Shown here: one piece after another, positions 13,926-21,429 of the stretch
How positions within the stretch are numbered: position 1 is the stretch's first letter
Layout: every line of letters starts with the position of its first letter
The notes under the pieces: generated by a model
Databases searched by the model: none
What the model saw: the letters and a program-made list of their open reading frames with translations, nothing else
Told to the model about the DNA's origin: nothing
Translations under genes and position numbers: made by a program
Origin: Alphaproteobacteria bacterium
GTDB taxonomy: Bacteria > Pseudomonadota > Alphaproteobacteria > SMXQ01
DNA: 32,922 nucleotides
Direction of reading: 5' to 3'
Assembly (NCBI GenBank): GCA_009380075.1
Contig: WHSO01000037.1
Span: forward strand, 1-32,922

Positions 13926-14744
13926 ATGGGTGCCATAGAGGGTCTCAGCCACCTGACCTTGCATGTCACCGACCTCACCCGGTCGGAGGACTTCTACGGC
14001 GGCATCCTCGGGCTCGACCCGGTGGGGCGGGACCTCGTGTCCGAAGACGGGCCGAATTCCCTGTTCCGCAGCGCCGCCGGGCACCTGGTCCTGCTGGTCG
14101 AGGTGCCGGGCCCGGTCGAACCGTTCCGCGGCAAGACCACCTCCATCCATCACGCCTGGTACCTGACGCCGGAGCAGCACGCGGCTGCGGTGGCCCGCCT
14201 GAAGGCGATGGGCATGCCCATCGGCGACACGCGCGAGGCGATGCGGGCGATGGGCCAGAAGAGCTTCGACGTCTACGACCCGGACGGCCACCGCTACCAG
14301 ATCCAGACCGTCGGGCCGGAGGCGTACCAGATTCTGAAGCCCTCCGCCGGCGAGATCGACTGCGGCAACATCGCCGACTACGAGGTCGGCGACGTCCGCT
14401 CGTTCAACGACGGCAAGCTCTATCTCGTCCGTTCGGAGAACGGTTTCGCCGCGCTGTCGCGCTGGTGTACCCACATGAACGGGCTCGTGCAGTGGAAGGA
14501 AAACCACTGGCATTTCTACTGCCCCTATCACAAGGCGACCTTCAACCGGGCGGGTGCCTCCACCAGCCACTTCCCCTTCGACACGCTGGCGCCGCTGCGC
14601 CTGCATCCGCTCGCGATCGCGAAGGATGGGTCCATCCGGGTCGATACCGACGTGCTGCTGATCCGCAAGAAGGCGGAAGCCCTGGACGTGGTCCCGGCGA
14701 CGCCCGGCGCCGCTACGGACACGAGCCGTTACGAAGCCATCTGA
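13926..14744 (+). CDS. VOC dioxygenase-like domain fused to a Rieske [2Fe-2S] domain
   Basis: The 272-residue protein joins two folds rarely found together. Residues 1-130 are a vicinal-oxygen-chelate (glyoxalase/extradiol dioxygenase) unit: H9 in LSHLTLHVTDL, H75/H76 in TSIHHAWYL, and a third ligand position in DPDGHRYQI that is Gln (Q125) rather than the usual Glu. Residues 145-245 form a Rieske-type domain with C181-x-H183-x15-C199-x2-H202, the exact ligand pattern for a [2Fe-2S] cluster. The start at 13926 follows GGGGAGACGG; an upstream frame extension lacks family sequence. It heads a tight operon. A self-contained electron-delivering oxygenase is an attractive reading but is inference. 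Confidence 0.85.
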   Translation: MGAIEGLSHLTLHVTDLTRSEDFYGGILGLDPVGRDLVSEDGPNSLFRSAAGHLVLLVEVPGPVEPFRGKTTSIHHAWYLTPEQHAAAVARLKAMGMPIGDTREAMRAMGQKSFDVYDPDGHRYQIQTVGPEAYQILKPSAGEIDCGNIADYEVGDVRSFNDGKLYLVRSENGFAALSRWCTHMNGLVQWKENHWHFYCPYHKATFNRAGASTSHFPFDTLAPLRLHPLAIAKDGSIRVDTDVLLIRKKAEALDVVPATPGAATDTSRYEAI

Positions 14745-14757
14745 GGAGGACGCGACG

Positions 14758-15246
14758 ATGTCTGAAGAAATGATCATGACGACGGGCATGCACAGCCTCA
14801 ACCACACCGCCATGCCGGTCCACGACATGGCGGCGGCGGAAGCCTTCTATTGCGATGTCCTCGGCGCCACGGCGCATCAGGCGACCTGCTTTTCGCTGGA
14901 GGACGTCAAGACCGGCGCCGCCATCTTCAAGTCCTTCGTCATCGGCGACTTCCTTCTCGCGCTGACGGTGGCGCGCAACAGCATGGACATGCCACCCCCG
15001 GACCGGTTCCGGGGCGCGCACGGCTATCGTCACGGTTTCCAGGTGTCCCGTGCGCGCTTCGACGAAATCCGTGCCGCGCTTGACGCCCACCGCGTGCCCT
15101 ACCAGGGGCCGGTGGCGCATCCGGAAAAGGGTCCCTTCGGCGCGTCGCTCTATTTCAAGGACCCGAGCGGCAATTTCCTCGAATTCGTCTGGCGCCGCGA
15201 CGAGGACGCCCTGCCCAGGAACCGCAGTTACCTGAGCCCCGAATGA
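14758..15246 (+). CDS. VOC family protein (extradiol dioxygenase-like)
   Basis: The 162-residue protein is a single VOC unit pair with an intact metal site: H16 in LNHTAMPVHDM, H92 in HGYRHGFQV and E142 in DPSGNFLEFVW, the 2-His-1-carboxylate set used for Fe(II) or another divalent metal. It starts 13 bases after the fusion gene behind GAGGAGG. Its stop overlaps the next start by four bases. Members of this superfamily cleave catechols, isomerise, or detoxify; the substrate cannot be read from sequence. Confidence 0.85.
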   Translation: MSEEMIMTTGMHSLNHTAMPVHDMAAAEAFYCDVLGATAHQATCFSLEDVKTGAAIFKSFVIGDFLLALTVARNSMDMPPPDRFRGAHGYRHGFQVSRARFDEIRAALDAHRVPYQGPVAHPEKGPFGASLYFKDPSGNFLEFVWRRDEDALPRNRSYLSPE

Positions 15247-16160
15247 TGACGTTGAACGGGGGCGTCTTTCAGTGCCTGTCGCACCTGGTGGTCGATGTTG
15301 CAGACCTCGACGCGGCCGAGGCGTTCTATCGCGACGGCCTCGGCCTGCAGCCGATCGGACGCGACGCCTGGCCCGATGCCGGGGCCAATGCCGTGCTCAA
15401 GGCGGGCGACCAGCACCTGGTGCTGTCGCGCAAGGCCGACCGGCCGGACCTGTCGGCCACCGGCGTGCACCAGGGCTATCGCATCGGCGCGGGCGGGCGT
15501 GAGGAGGTGCGCGGACGCCTGCAGCGCCTCGGTGTGACGGTGGAAACCTACCACGAGGACCGCCCAGCCGAGGCCAGGGACAACTTCTACGCCTTCGATC
15601 CGTCGGGCAACCGGGTGCAGTTGGTGGTGGACTCGCGCCTCGACGGCGGGCCGGGGGTGGCGGGCATCGATCACGCCTGCGTGCAGGACTACGACATGCA
15701 ATGGGCGCAGGAATTCTACGGCGGCATGCTTGGCCTGGCCCTCGATCACGTCTCCGGCCTGCACACCGACGACTACCTTCGCGCCCAAGCCTGGGGTGAT
15801 GAGAAGGAAGCCATGGCACCGGGCTGTTGCCGCCTCGTCAAGTACTACCGCGAGATCCCCGGCCAGAACCGGATGCAGCCCCGCCCCAGCCTGCAAATGT
15901 ATTTTCGTGCCGGAAGCGGAGTCATCGGTGTCTACATGGCGATGGAAGACTATGCCGAGCCGCCGGAGGAACAGCTTGTCGGCACGCCGCGCACGGCGCT
16001 GCGGGTCGCAAAAGGCAAGCTCGACACGGTGGCGCGGGCGCTGGAGGCGCGTGGCCGCTCGTTCTGCGGTCCCGTCGACCACGGCGGCAACGGCGCCATC
16101 GGCCGGTCGCTCTACAGCCGCGACACCGGCGGTAACTTCATCGAATTTTGCGAGGCCTAG
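15243..16160 (+). CDS. Two-module VOC protein, catechol 2,3-dioxygenase-like
   Basis: The 305-residue protein holds two VOC modules, the size and order of two-domain extradiol dioxygenases. The first (residues 1-130) has SHLVVDVADLDAAEAFY and DPSGNRVQLVV, where the usual Glu is Gln. The second (from VAGIDHACVQDYDMQWAQEFYGGMLG) begins with a conserved His and ends DTGGNFIEFCEA with the Glu in place. In two-domain extradiol enzymes only the C-terminal module binds iron, so loss of the ligand in module one is normal; the middle His of module two is not clearly visible (GSGVIGVYMAMED). The start overlaps the preceding stop (ATGATGA). Confidence 0.82.
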   Translation: MMTLNGGVFQCLSHLVVDVADLDAAEAFYRDGLGLQPIGRDAWPDAGANAVLKAGDQHLVLSRKADRPDLSATGVHQGYRIGAGGREEVRGRLQRLGVTVETYHEDRPAEARDNFYAFDPSGNRVQLVVDSRLDGGPGVAGIDHACVQDYDMQWAQEFYGGMLGLALDHVSGLHTDDYLRAQAWGDEKEAMAPGCCRLVKYYREIPGQNRMQPRPSLQMYFRAGSGVIGVYMAMEDYAEPPEEQLVGTPRTALRVAKGKLDTVARALEARGRSFCGPVDHGGNGAIGRSLYSRDTGGNFIEFCEA

Positions 16161-16226
16161 GGCCTTGGCCGTCGATCCCTCGCGTACCAACCAGAACAAC
16201 GTCACCAGCAAGGGCAGGAACCGCAC

Positions 16227-17468
16227 ATGACCGCATCCGTCACCGACCCCATCGGCCAGGGTCAGCTCTATCCCCAGTTTTCCCTCGCCGAGCGCGACCG
16301 GCGCTGGAAGCTGGTCCGGTCGCTGATGGCCAAGGAGGACCTGCCGGTCATCGTCGTGCCCAACAACACGGGGCATTCGACCGATTTCCAGGCGTCGGCG
16401 CGCTGGCTCAGCCATGTCGGCGGCGGCGGCGATACCGAAGTGGCGGTGACCTTCCCACTGGAGGGCGAGCCGTCGGCCTGCGCCAACCGCGCCAACACCG
16501 ACTGGTCGGCGCCGGTGCAGCACTGGACGACCAAGCTCTACAACACCCGGCGCAACACCGTGTCGGGGGTGATCGAACATCTGCGCGAGCTCAAGACCGA
16601 CCGCGGCAAGGTCGGTGTCGTCGGGCTCGGCGCCGGCACGCGCACGCCCATGGGCACCATCCTGCAAGGCTTCTACACCCAGATGCGCGACGCGTTTCCC
16701 AATGCCCAGTTCGTCGACGCGACACATATCCTGGAGGAAGCGCGCTACCAGAAGAGCGAGGAAGAAGTCGCCGCCCTGCAGAAGTCCATCGACATCATCG
16801 AAAAAGGCATTGAGGCCAAGGTGGCCGCCGCCAGGCCCGGCGTCGTCGACTGGCACATCTGGGCCGCGGTGCAGTCGGCGCTGCTGATGAACGGGTCCGA
16901 AATCCCGGTGCACTGCAACTGGGTCTGCGGGCCCAACGCCAAGCACACGCGCACGCGGGCGACGTTCCGCAAGATCGAGAAGGGCGACCTCATCATCAAC
17001 GAGATCGAGGCCTCGTGGATCGGCTACCGCGCCCAGCAAGTGCAACCGGTGTTCGTCCAGGAAGTCGATCCCGTGCACGCGGAACTGATCAAGGTGCAGG
17101 GCGAGGTCTATGCCCGCCTGCTCGAGATCCTCAGGCCCGGCGTCACGGTGGGCGAGATGGCGGAAAAGACCAAGGAGATCACCGCTAGGGCGCTGCCGGC
17201 CAAGGGCCCGGCAGCGGGCGCCCGCGGCCGGCTCAATATGCACGGCCGCGGCCAGGGCGACGACGGTCCGCTGATCACGCCGGGCCAGGTGCGGCCCGAG
17301 CAGCTCGCGCGTCCGCTCAGGGAGAACATGGCCTTCATCTTCAAGCCCGCGGTCATTACCGCGGATGAAAAATACGAATCGGTCTGGGGCGATACCATCA
17401 TCATCACGCCGAAGGGCGGGCGGAGGCTCGGCTCGCGCCCGCACGGCCACCTGGTTTCCGGTCTTTAG
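16227..17468 (+). CDS. M24-fold (pita-bread) protein with most metal ligands replaced
   Basis: The 413-residue protein has a creatinase-type N-terminal domain (about 1-170) and an M24 pita-bread domain. Aligned by eye to aminopeptidase P, the five metal ligands read E259 (Asp expected), Q270 (Asp expected, in IGYRAQQVQP), H339 (conserved, NMHGRGQ), K373 (Glu expected, IFKPAV) and G388 (Glu expected, VWGDTIIIT). With one of five clearly retained, a two-metal peptidase is unlikely. The fold also hosts the metal-free hydrolase creatinase, so a metal-independent C-N or other lyase/hydrolase is possible. It lies 66 bases after the VOC gene and 14 bases before the bicupin gene, all on one strand. 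Confidence 0.8.
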   Translation: MTASVTDPIGQGQLYPQFSLAERDRRWKLVRSLMAKEDLPVIVVPNNTGHSTDFQASARWLSHVGGGGDTEVAVTFPLEGEPSACANRANTDWSAPVQHWTTKLYNTRRNTVSGVIEHLRELKTDRGKVGVVGLGAGTRTPMGTILQGFYTQMRDAFPNAQFVDATHILEEARYQKSEEEVAALQKSIDIIEKGIEAKVAAARPGVVDWHIWAAVQSALLMNGSEIPVHCNWVCGPNAKHTRTRATFRKIEKGDLIINEIEASWIGYRAQQVQPVFVQEVDPVHAELIKVQGEVYARLLEILRPGVTVGEMAEKTKEITARALPAKGPAAGARGRLNMHGRGQGDDGPLITPGQVRPEQLARPLRENMAFIFKPAVITADEKYESVWGDTIIITPKGGRRLGSRPHGHLVSGL

Positions 17469-17482
17469 GGAGCAGCAGCATC

Positions 17483-18616
17483 ATGGCGACACGCGTATTC
17501 GATCCGACCGGAGTCTACGAGGGAGTGGACGACCTCAAGAGCCTCAAGACCTTCTACGAGGACTGGCAGGACCGCGAAGGCGTCCCCGTCCATACCACCT
17601 TCCATATCGAGGACCTCGCCACCGTGCCGGTCGGCCCGTGGAAGCGCTTCGGCGCGAAAGGGTGCTTCATCAATCTGGCGGACTGTCACATCGTCGCCGC
17701 CGCCATGCTGGAGATTCCGCCCGGCGGCAAGACGAATCCGGTCAAGCACATGTTCGAGAGCTGGTGCTACGTCGTCCACGGACGCGGGGAAACCACCTTC
17801 GAGCAGCCGGGCACCGCCGGCGGGCGCGTCGAGTGGGAGGACCGCGGCCTGTTCGGCCCGCCGCTCAACACCACCTATCAGCACCGCAACCTCGATCCCG
17901 CGAAGCCCGCGCGCATCCTTCTGGTGACCAACGCGCCGGTGACCATGAACCTCTATCATTCCGACGAATTCATCTTCGACAACCCGTTCGTGTTCAAGGA
18001 CCGCTTCCGCGGCCAGAACGACTTCTTCAATCCGGTCATGGAATACATGCGGCCCAAATATCTGGGCGCGCGGGTGTTGCGGTCAAACCTCGTGCCGGAC
18101 GTGCTGGAGACGTCGCTCGCCCACTGGGCGCTGCGCGGTCATGCCGCCAAGACGGTGCACCTGTCGATGAGCGATCACACCATGGCGGCGCATATCTCCG
18201 ACTTCGAGGTGGGCACCTACAAGAAGGCCCACCGCCACGGTCCCGGCGCCCATGTCATCCTGCTGCAGGGAACCGGCTACTCGCTGATCTGGAAGGAGGG
18301 CGAGCCGCGCCAGCGTGTCGACTGGAAGCCCGGCACCATGTTCGCGCCGCCGGAATGGTATTTCCACCAGCACTTCAACACCGGCAAGGAGCCGGCGCGC
18401 TACCTCGCGCTGCGCCGCGGCGGCAGCCCCGAACACAAGATGAAGATCGGCATGTCCGGCGGCGAGAAGGCCGAGGGCCCCGACCAGATCGAATACGAAT
18501 ACGAAGACCCCGCGATCTACGAGGAGTTCGTCGCGGAACTGAAAAAGAACGGCGCTGAATGCCGCCAGCCGCGGCCCGTCTATGCATCGGGCCCGCGTCC
18601 GGATTTCAAGGATTGA
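17483..18616 (+). CDS. Bicupin protein
   Basis: The 377-residue protein contains two cupin barrels. The first (about 65-165) has GGKTNPVKHMFESWCYVVHGRGETTF, with only one clear His of the usual set. The second (about 245-330) has YKKAHRHGPGAHVILLQGTGYSLIW, matching HxHx5-6H of a metal-binding cupin motif, followed by PEWYFHQHFN in motif 2. Bicupins of this size include gentisate dioxygenase and oxalate decarboxylase relatives; sequence around the motifs does not identify either with confidence. Only the second barrel appears equipped for metal. It is likely co-translated with the M24-like gene and may act on the same small molecule. Confidence 0.8.
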   Translation: MATRVFDPTGVYEGVDDLKSLKTFYEDWQDREGVPVHTTFHIEDLATVPVGPWKRFGAKGCFINLADCHIVAAAMLEIPPGGKTNPVKHMFESWCYVVHGRGETTFEQPGTAGGRVEWEDRGLFGPPLNTTYQHRNLDPAKPARILLVTNAPVTMNLYHSDEFIFDNPFVFKDRFRGQNDFFNPVMEYMRPKYLGARVLRSNLVPDVLETSLAHWALRGHAAKTVHLSMSDHTMAAHISDFEVGTYKKAHRHGPGAHVILLQGTGYSLIWKEGEPRQRVDWKPGTMFAPPEWYFHQHFNTGKEPARYLALRRGGSPEHKMKIGMSGGEKAEGPDQIEYEYEDPAIYEEFVAELKKNGAECRQPRPVYASGPRPDFKD

Positions 18617-18657
18617 CGCGTGACGCCGCCCGTCGCGTCGAACAGAGGAGGTACCGC

Positions 18658-20013
18658 ATGATCCGAATCACCGCAGCCGTCAGCGCCGCGTTTCTTGCCG
18701 CGGTCGCCGCCGCGCCGGCGCCCCGCGCGGCCGACTTGCCCCAGGCCACCCGGGACATGCTCATGGAGCTCAAGATCGACGAAAAGCTCCTCGCCGGCTC
18801 CGAGAAGGAATACGAGGTTCCCGCCGCATGGCTCGCGGGGGCGAAGAAGGAAGGAGCGCTCAAGATCATCGGCACCTGGGACCCGTCCCAGCATCGCAAG
18901 TACATGAAGCCGTTCCAGGAGCGCTACCCCGGCGTCAAGTTCGACTACACCCGCGCCGGCCGCAGCGACCGGACGGTGAAGCCGCTGCTGGCCTTCAAGG
19001 AAGGGCGCTATCTCGGCGACGTCATCTCGGGCCTCGGCAACGCCTATTTCATCTACCGCGATTCCAAGGCGCTGATGAAGCTCACCGATCTGCCCAACGC
19101 CAGGCTGCTGGGCGACGATCTGCTCGATCCCGCCGGTTTCTGGATCGGCCATCAGGCAAGCTATTGGTGCGTGAGCTACAACAAGAACCTGGTCAAGCAG
19201 GCGGACCTGCCCAGGACCTGGGACGGTTTTCTCGACGCCGCCAAGTGGGGCAACGGACGCATCGGCATGGGCAACCGCGCAAACCTCTGGTTCCTGCAGC
19301 TGTGGAAGGCTCACGGCGTCGACTGGGCGCGCAACTTCATGGACAAGCTGTTCAACGAGGTGAAGCCGCAGCAGCGCAAGGAAGGCATGAACGCGCTGGT
19401 GGGCCTGGTGATCGCCGGCGAGTTCGCCGTCACCATCCCGTCGGCCATGTATCGCGTCTCGCAGCTCGCCGACAAGGGTGCGCCGGTCGGTTATCACTGC
19501 CCCGAGCCGGTACCCTCAACCGTGCAATCCATCGTGGCGCTCAACGGTAATCCCCACCCCAACGGCACGCGCGTCTACATCAACTGGATGCTGAGCAAGG
19601 AAGGCCAGATCGCGCAGTACTACGCCCTGCAGGCGTCCTCGGTGCGCGAGGAGCTGCAGATCCCGGAGCTGGTCGCCTTCCCCGAGGCGGTCAAGGGTAA
19701 GAAGAAGACCTTCCGCGATCCCGAGACCCTGCAGCAGACCTGGCCCCAGGTGCTCAAGGCCTGGAGCGCTCATTGGGACTCCGCGAGCGGCGTCAAGACG
19801 GTCACCGCGAAGCTCGACAAGGTGATCCGCGGCGGCCGCCAGCTCCAGTTCAAGGCCGGAAAATCCACCCACACGGTCAAGATTTCCCAGTCGCGTACCG
19901 CCATGCGCGTCGCCGGCAAGAAGGCCGGGCGCGGCGACTTCAAGGAAGGCATGCAGTGCACGTTCGTCTATCCCGACGACAAGGGCGAGGCGCGCGAAGT
20001 CATCTGCAAGTAA
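18658..20013 (+). CDS. Iron-type ABC solute-binding protein A with extra C-terminal domain
   Basis: The 451-residue secreted protein has a signal peptide (MIRITAAVSAAFLAAVAAAPAPRAA, cut near residue 25), an N-terminal helical stretch, then an AfuA/FbpA-like periplasmic binding fold (about 65-330). A further 70-residue C-terminal segment is rich in beta strands and lies beyond the usual family length. It has exactly four cysteines, C171 (SYWCVSYN), C281 (YHCPEPVP), C434 and C450, which match those of the next gene one for one and could form two disulfides. The start follows AGAGGAGGT. No permease or ATPase gene accompanies it, so it may serve a distant transporter or work as a binding or enzyme partner. 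Confidence 0.83.
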   Translation: MIRITAAVSAAFLAAVAAAPAPRAADLPQATRDMLMELKIDEKLLAGSEKEYEVPAAWLAGAKKEGALKIIGTWDPSQHRKYMKPFQERYPGVKFDYTRAGRSDRTVKPLLAFKEGRYLGDVISGLGNAYFIYRDSKALMKLTDLPNARLLGDDLLDPAGFWIGHQASYWCVSYNKNLVKQADLPRTWDGFLDAAKWGNGRIGMGNRANLWFLQLWKAHGVDWARNFMDKLFNEVKPQQRKEGMNALVGLVIAGEFAVTIPSAMYRVSQLADKGAPVGYHCPEPVPSTVQSIVALNGNPHPNGTRVYINWMLSKEGQIAQYYALQASSVREELQIPELVAFPEAVKGKKKTFRDPETLQQTWPQVLKAWSAHWDSASGVKTVTAKLDKVIRGGRQLQFKAGKSTHTVKISQSRTAMRVAGKKAGRGDFKEGMQCTFVYPDDKGEAREVICK

Positions 20014-20055
20014 CCGGACGCGAAGATACCCAACGAATCAACAGGAGGGCTCACC

Positions 20056-21429
20056 ATGTCGCACATCTCCATCCTCGGTCGCGCCGCCGCGCTGGCGGCC
20101 GTTGCCGGCCTCGTTGCCTTCGGCGCCGCCCCGGCCGCGGAGCTTCCGGCGGCAACGAAGAAGATCCTCAAGGAGCTGAAGGTCCCGGAATCGATCCTGG
20201 ACGATATCGACCAGGAGCTCGCCGTGCCCAAGGCATGGATCGAGGGCGCCCGGAAGGAAGGGGAGGTTCGGATCGTCGATACCCATTCCGACAAGGTCCA
20301 CGCGCAGATGACCGCACCGTTCCGCGCGCGTTATCCGTTCATCAAGATCCGGAACACCCGCGGCTCGTACCAGTCGCGCACCACCCGGGTCATGATCGCG
20401 ATCCAGGCCGGCAACTACACCACCGACATTGCCATGGACTACGGCGGTTATTACGAGCAATTCCACAAGGCGGGCATGCTCCACGACATGCGCGAGCTTC
20501 CCAACTTCACCAAGGTGCCCGAGCAGGCGCGCGGCAAGGACGGCACCTGGGTGGCGCATCGCCGCCAGTACTGGTGCGTGAGCTACAACACCAACAAGAT
20601 CAAGAAAGCCGACCTGCCCAAGACCTGGGACGGGTTTCTCGATGACCCGCGCTGGCGCAACGGCATGATGGCGATCGGCAATCGGCCGCAGCTTTGGATC
20701 CTGATGCTGTGGGGCCATTACGGGCCCGATTACGCCAAGCGGTACATGGCGCGCCTGTTCAACGAGGTGAAGCCGCAGCTTCGCAAGGAAGGCATGAACG
20801 CGCTGGTGTCGCTCACTATCGCCGGCGAATTGCCGCTTGCGGTGCCGTCCTCCGAATACCGGGTACAGCTCTCCCAGGAGAAGGGCGCGCCCGTGGGCTA
20901 CCACTGTCCCGAGCCGGTGCCGGCCTCGATGGCGGAGATGGGCATCTTCAAGGGCAACCCGCACATGAACGCGGCCCGGCTTTACGTCAACTGGCTGCTC
21001 TCCAAGGAGGGGCAAATCGCCCAGTTCTACGCCTCGCGCTCGGTGCCGATCCACGAGGGGCTGCAGCGCAAGGAGTTCGTTCCCTTCGCCGAGGAGATCC
21101 AGGGCAAGAAGATCGCCCTGCGCGCGCCCGAACTGATGCGCGATTCGAGCGTCGAGGTGCAGAAGATCTGGGGCGAGCACTGGGCCAAGGCGACGGGCGA
21201 GGGGCCGGAGCGCACGGTTTCGATCAAGATCGAGAAAATCCAGAAGAAGGGCGCCGCGGTCGATTTCAAGCTCGCGGGCAAGCCCGAAACGGCGGCCATT
21301 TCCGGCAGCCGGACCACGATCACCGTGGGCGGCAAGAAGGTGCGGCGCAACGCGCTGAAGGCGGGGCTCGAATGCCAGATCACCTACCGCGGTTCAGGCA
21401 CCGAGGCGACGGCGCTGGCCTGCAAGTAG
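20056..21429 (+). CDS. Iron-type ABC solute-binding protein B, paralogue of A
   Basis: The 457-residue protein is a tandem paralogue of the preceding one with the same layout: signal peptide (cut after APAAA, near residue 28), helical stretch, two-lobed binding fold, and the same C-terminal beta segment. Long shared blocks include YWCVSYN, LPKTWDGFLD, LFNEVKPQLRKEGMNALV and GAPVGYHCPEPVP. Its four cysteines (C174, C284, C440, C456) are in the same places. Lining residues differ, for example TGTWDPSQHRK in A versus VDTHSDKVHAQ here, so the two may bind different ligands. It starts 42 bases after the first gene, behind AGGAGG. It is probably the last gene of the operon. Confidence 0.83.
   Translation: MSHISILGRAAALAAVAGLVAFGAAPAAELPAATKKILKELKVPESILDDIDQELAVPKAWIEGARKEGEVRIVDTHSDKVHAQMTAPFRARYPFIKIRNTRGSYQSRTTRVMIAIQAGNYTTDIAMDYGGYYEQFHKAGMLHDMRELPNFTKVPEQARGKDGTWVAHRRQYWCVSYNTNKIKKADLPKTWDGFLDDPRWRNGMMAIGNRPQLWILMLWGHYGPDYAKRYMARLFNEVKPQLRKEGMNALVSLTIAGELPLAVPSSEYRVQLSQEKGAPVGYHCPEPVPASMAEMGIFKGNPHMNAARLYVNWLLSKEGQIAQFYASRSVPIHEGLQRKEFVPFAEEIQGKKIALRAPELMRDSSVEVQKIWGEHWAKATGEGPERTVSIKIEKIQKKGAAVDFKLAGKPETAAISGSRTTITVGGKKVRRNALKAGLECQITYRGSGTEATALACK

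Follow-up and report, generated by a model that had tools for sequence, protein, structure and literature searches.

A recurrent gene cassette built around a VOC-Rieske fusion protein in uncultured Alphaproteobacteria and Chloroflexota

Several described enzyme groups each resemble one part of the seven-gene locus (genes A to G) that we analyze here. Rieske non-heme iron ring-hydroxylating oxygenases, including those of the LigXa type, are like the product of gene A in pairing a Rieske [2Fe-2S] domain with a mononuclear-metal domain (putative in A) and in lying in aromatic-catabolic neighborhoods, but they carry a C-terminal Ring_hydroxyl_A or LigXa_C domain where A instead begins with a VOC module, and the ligands differ. 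Type I extradiol dioxygenases, which are VOC proteins, have paired VOC modules as the cassette does, and the product of gene C has the size of their two-module chains (about 290-310 residues), but their His-His-Glu triad contrasts with the His-His-Gln and His-Arg-Glu sets, the Rieske fusion and the split A/B form of the cassette. Creatinase and the ectoine hydrolase DoeA are metal-free M24 enzymes; they share with the product of gene D an M24 fold with a changed metal site, whereas D has its own invariant set (E259/Q270/H339/K373). The bicupins gentisate 1,2-dioxygenase and 5-aminosalicylate dioxygenase have a three-His C-terminal cupin, as does the product of gene E, but their similarity to it is low (for example, a MabB score of 19.8 against a cut-off of 650). 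ChaP, a VOC oxygenase of chartreusin biosynthesis, works with flavin-activated oxygen, for which an external source is needed (PMC12281474); like A it has a single-module VOC fold, but it has no Rieske domain, is supplied by a flavin and is biosynthetic. Lastly, SAR202 Chloroflexi have paralog-expanded oxygenase families, with a proposed role in the use of recalcitrant aromatics, and resemble the cassette genomes in having many oxygenase paralogs per genome, but the text of that paper mentions neither glyoxalase nor M24 proteins (PMC6946804). The individual folds at our locus are thus all known. We did not find the VOC-Rieske fusion, the correspondence between the A/B pair and C, or the cassette itself in the open-access literature, and we provisionally regard them as novel and the pairing of VOC and Rieske domains in a probable aromatic-catabolic oxygenase cluster as undescribed.

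The window, a 32.9-kb stretch of DNA, is an entire contig of a 3.54-Mb draft genome. Its genes A to G are seven ORFs reading in the same direction (Table 1), separated in order by 13, -4, 66, 14, 41 and 42 bases, so that the co-directional arrangement described in an initial annotation is confirmed by the ORFs and their Pfam assignments. Plausible ribosome-binding-like sequences lie 5' of most of the seven. Pfam identifies Glyoxalase/VOC and Rieske domains in A, VOC domains in B and C, M24 in D, cupin in E and extracellular binding proteins in F and G; the gene 3' of G encodes NnrS, a separate family. Consensus scans gave no more promoters than shuffled sequences did, and terminator-like sites were only slightly commoner than in shuffles.

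Table 1. Features of the cassette between positions 13926 and 21429 of the window.
Feature	Coordinates	Strand	Basis
Gene A, VOC + Rieske	13926..14744	+	Pfam; 25 relatives; Fos alignment; model
Gene B, single VOC module	14758..15246	+	Pfam; 24 relatives; profile match to C2
Gene C, two VOC modules (C1 + C2)	15243..16160	+	Pfam; 22 relatives; profile comparison
Gene D, M24 (pita-bread) protein without metal ligands	16227..17468	+	Pfam; 21 relatives; prolidase alignment
Gene E, bicupin	17483..18616	+	Pfam; PDB 3bu7; residues in 7 relatives
Gene F, secreted ABC-type substrate-binding protein	18658..20013	+	Pfam SBP_bac_1/8/6
F C-terminal domain, ~72 aa, OB-fold-like	19795..20013	+	own-genome matches; alignment; model
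Gene G, second secreted ABC-type substrate-binding protein	20056..21429	+	Pfam; identity to F
G C-terminal domain, same type as in F	21214-21426	+	own-genome matches

The gene set is not confined to one strain, the outcome that the initial annotation had named as refuting its reading; it is kept in an uncultured order of Alphaproteobacteria and in Chloroflexota. With a profile of A we detected relatives in 8 of the 11 genomes of the host's order and in only 3 of the 385 genomes sampled from the class. These three all belong to the host's own family, and they are also the ones with matches to D. When 84,980 species genomes were scanned with a pattern-based method, full-length A turned up in metagenome-assembled genomes (MAGs) of Alphaproteobacteria and of Chloroflexi. 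Three Chloroflexi genomes have 3, 7 and 16 matches to A (in the last, two pieces look like one broken gene, and the count is 15 at a stricter threshold), and a fourth genome of the same Chloroflexi class has 4. Our tally comprises 36 copies of A, of which the 27 with more than 1.8 kb of downstream sequence were used to judge the order of B and C: B directly follows A in 26 of the 27, and the order A-B-C is present in 23. This order is shared by 8 of the 11 genomes of the host's order and by the Chloroflexota MAGs. Within 10 kb of A there is a binding protein in 29 of the 36 loci, D in 20, an E-family bicupin in 10 and a fused permease in 9, counts that include related copies and do not represent independent events; the genomes are drafts, and several loci stop at contig edges. 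The figure for D establishes the repeated co-occurrence of the VOC-Rieske fusion and the M24 protein that had been proposed as a mark of a functional system. Contig C93 of the host genome, which holds its second and third copies of A, carries a second cassette in the order A-B-C-D-SBP-SBP-A'-B'-SBP, preceded by a LysR regulator (L005, 3576-12772).

Distances among the proteins are strongly correlated between A and B (Mantel r = 0.88), A and C (0.88), and A and D (0.78), and none of 5000 permutations gave a value as high. Because several genomes contribute two paralogous cassettes, the correlation does not reflect the species tree alone. The locus is a genuine module and not a one-strain curiosity: the seven-gene set is far beyond chance, because its gene order recurs in many genomes.

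In the product of gene A, a VOC module (residues about 1-131) precedes the Rieske [2Fe-2S] domain, which lies at the C terminus (about 140-258), and a structural model (pLDDT 88) has the same layout. The Rieske ligands C181, H183, C199 and H202 (Cys-X-His ... Cys-X2-His) show no variation among 25 copies of A. By VIA-align, the model matches the soluble Rieske protein 9rk4 with Z = 15.8 and an rmsd of 2.1 across 110 residues; its matches to VOC proteins have Z of 11-12.6, among them 2qqz (12.6) and ChaP-H1 (6a52; 11.6). Pfam finds no C-terminal Ring_hydroxyl_A, LigXa_C or related catalytic domain in A, and we found no plasmid match for it. The seven-gene cluster includes no dedicated ferredoxin reductase. 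One Chloroflexota cassette has a gene for a siderophore-interacting (SIP-type) FAD protein between its bicupin and M24 genes (L158, 3819-4637), and this protein could be an electron donor for the Rieske domain.

The two further VOC proteins of the initial annotation are both VOC proteins, but of different construction, B having a single module and C (305 residues) two. In profile comparisons C proves to be made of an A-type module (C1) fused to a B-type module (C2): A matches C1 with E = 1.3e-27 and B matches C2 with E = 1e-29, as against 1e-15 to 1e-7 for all other pairs. The A/B pair therefore corresponds to C, and we infer from homology that the two proteins assemble into a heteromeric VOC enzyme, the equivalent of single-chain C. 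The positions aligned with metal ligands, whose roles we take from known FosA and extradiol structures, are H9, H75 and Q125 in A (by alignment to Fos proteins); H16, R91 and E142 in B (24 relatives); mostly H13, H76 and Q126 in C1, with H13 not fully kept (22 relatives); and H144, R250 and E301 in C2 (22 relatives). At these positions no single module has the extradiol His-His-Glu, A and C1 having His-His-Gln and B and C2 His-Arg-Glu. We considered an extradiol triad for B with H92 as its second ligand and rejected it, because profile alignments place R91 there. In known swapped VOC dimers, a site combines a His of one module with two ligands of its partner. By analogy, there would be a His-His-Gln site and a His-Arg-Glu site in an A/B pair and likewise in C by itself; given these residues, some or all of the modules might hold no metal.

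The reading that we favor, and whose chances we regard as about even, is that the cassette is a duplicated, co-inherited module that imports and oxidatively degrades an oxygenated aromatic (or aromatic-like) compound, with the Rieske domain feeding a VOC iron site. Many VOC proteins merely bind ligands, and A-B-C could instead be binding or protection proteins of the bleomycin/fosfomycin-resistance type, which would sequester or detoxify an imported compound without any oxygenase chemistry. Fos and bleomycin-binding proteins are indeed the best matches of the VOC modules in both sequence and fold, and the metal ligands of these modules are altered. Every Fos score is, however, far below the curated cut-offs (the best NCBIfam score is 38.2 against a cut-off of 280, so we rejected a FosA/B/X identity), a conserved Rieske cluster and catabolic neighbors would be unexpected, and the presence of as many as 15 copies in a genome, accompanied by different receptors, looks like substrate diversification. 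We consider a purely sequestering role unlikely.

The proposal that the cluster serves ring breakdown gains support from the neighbors of the cassettes in other genomes. Near relatives' cassettes are genes for LigXa-type Rieske and Ring_hydroxyl_A oxygenases, UbiD, amidohydrolase-2, a two-domain cupin and LysR/IclR regulators; these aromatic-catabolism enzymes occur in some relatives only, and none is encoded in the present window. Within 10 kb of A, a LigXa-type Rieske oxygenase lies at 5 of the 36 loci and one of the other type at 2. XylT-type ferredoxins re-reduce oxidized Fe(III) in catechol 2,3-dioxygenase, and LigXa-type oxygenases need a ferredoxin. Another possibility is that the VOC proteins are ordinary accessories of ring cleavage or repair, with B and C as extradiol-like dioxygenases and the Rieske domain of A as no more than a ferredoxin, which re-reduces their Fe(III) or feeds LigXa-type oxygenases. 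The closeness of this domain to soluble Rieske electron carriers (the 9rk4 match) and the LigXa-type genes near the cassette in several relatives fit such a role. Against it, none of the VOC modules keeps the triad of extradiol enzymes, Rieske oxygenases are missing from the 10 kb around most copies of A-B-C, and a plain ferredoxin needs no VOC module co-inherited with B. We think that this explanation is probably wrong, although it is the most credible of the alternatives.

The M24 domain of D (PF00557, E = 6e-16) was described at the outset as stripped of its ligands, and alignment to Pyrococcus furiosus prolidase (1pv9), whose aligned residues we take as the metal ligands, bears this out for all five: the two Asp are replaced by E259 and Q270, the His by Q343, and the two Glu by K373 and G388. 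The 21 relatives aligned all keep E259, Q270, H339, D346, K373 and G388. The invariance of E259, Q270, K373, G388 and H339 indicates that D is a distinct conserved family and not a decayed one. Profile searches match D to creatinase (1chm, E = 1.9e-18) and DoeA (6twk, E = 1.8e-8), and it most resembles the metal-free M24 enzymes in kind; a DoeA identity was rejected, the NCBIfam score being 73.9 against a cut-off of 575. Plasmid pl4 of Sphingobium AntQ-1 (L042) has an M24 relative (37% identity), whose gene as annotated is shorter than the match and perhaps split, together with genes for a flavin reductase, a two-domain cupin, FAH, a class II aldolase and an LLM monooxygenase. We do not regard this plasmid as a characterized pathway for the cassette, since its paper names it once and mentions neither M24 nor cupin genes, and its cupin had no match to E in a cluster comparison.

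Of the three metal-oxygen folds initially claimed for the cluster, the cupin keeps its site, but that of extradiol enzymes is not found in any VOC module. Aligned to gentisate 1,2-dioxygenase (3bu7), the C-terminal cupin of E retains three His residues (H250, H252 and H297), which are present in 7 relatives. The family of E has about 20 further members in the host's 3.5-Mb genome, including tandem groups of three at C162:49738-53184, C81:9600-12957 and C125:10206-13812; one bicupin gene of the C162 group has an in-frame TGA. A close bicupin adjoins A at four loci (L045, L047, L048 and L051). E may serve a separate step, being absent from many copies of the cassette. Names such as 'gentisate' and 'LigXa', as used here for homologs, denote folds and not substrates.

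The binding proteins F and G are 44% identical to each other. Locally they are orphans, as initially stated, but in relatives the same receptors adjoin a transporter: after the cassette come genes for a receptor and for an ABC permease of two domains (PF00528), joined at some loci by one for an ATPase. The host has a permease on another contig (C153:10437-12161), 59% identical to the relatives' fused permease and adjoining a receptor 42% identical to F (C153:12326-13687). In Chloroflexota cassettes the receptor often belongs to another family (SBP_bac_5 or NMT1); because the receptor family varies while A-B-C stays, the uptake part is interchangeable. We rejected an identity with the 2-aminoethylphosphonate receptor PhnS, for which F scores 38.1 against an NCBIfam (phnS2) cut-off of 392.75 and G 31.2 against 310. 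Contigs C93 and C100 of the host (G000) both start with an equally scoring 83-residue permease end (positions 1-249), which suggests that duplicated transporter genes form an assembly-breaking repeat.

Both receptors end in a domain with two invariant Cys residues and no Pfam match. It has 47 matches in the host genome, in about 45 other ORFs (L105-L133), and is carried by two unrelated receptor families, ABC receptors and TctC-type proteins. A model (pLDDT 91) is an OB-like barrel whose nearest structure is CusF, with a middling Z of 9.1 (rmsd 2.0 over 64 residues). Among the 385 sampled genomes of the class the domain occurs in 10, from three families.

F and G are also related to Fe(III) ABC receptors (7f6r), which raises the idea that the module degrades an iron-chelating ligand, such as a siderophore or a humic chelate, and so frees iron; the siderophore-interacting flavoprotein gene at L158 would be in keeping with this. 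That gene is found in one relative only, however, the matches of the receptors to phosphonate families are similarly weak, and the consensus promoter scans gave no sign of iron regulation, so that we consider chelate degradation very unlikely. Like the ferredoxin-only and sequestering roles, it is less favored than oxidation at a VOC site fed by the Rieske domain.

We can outline how oxidation of this kind might proceed, where the metal, the electron route, the substrate and the order of reactions are those that we infer. The receptors F and G would capture the compound and pass it to the ABC permease, which is encoded elsewhere in the host and next to the receptors in relatives. If A and B assemble like a swapped VOC dimer, one of their sites would hold a non-heme metal by His(B)-His(A)-Gln(A), and the second, which contains the Arg, would bind substrate and not metal. 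The tethered Rieske domain of A would deliver electrons to the His-His-Gln site, either for reductive activation of O2 or to keep the iron ferrous. Given the precedent of ChaP, a VOC oxygenase supplied with oxygen that is activated elsewhere, a reductant-fed VOC site is reasonable. After oxidation by A/B (and C), E would act as a ring-cleaving bicupin at its three-His site, and D as a metal-free pita-bread hydrolase or lyase on the product of that cleavage.

We have described a gene module that is conserved and multi-copy in uncultured members of the Alphaproteobacteria and Chloroflexota. The correspondence between A/B and C predicts that A binds B, and that C acts like the A/B pair without an electron carrier. 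If the Rieske domain does feed a VOC iron site, Rieske-driven oxygen activation would have a second structural basis, and the module would offer a testable route for the degradation of resistant aromatic matter in these genomes. More tentatively, and as a possibility that we lean against, A-B-C may represent a new class of Rieske-fed oxygenases in which a heteromeric VOC core replaces the classical catalytic domain, and whose many copies per genome, with interchangeable importers, would act on different recalcitrant aromatics.
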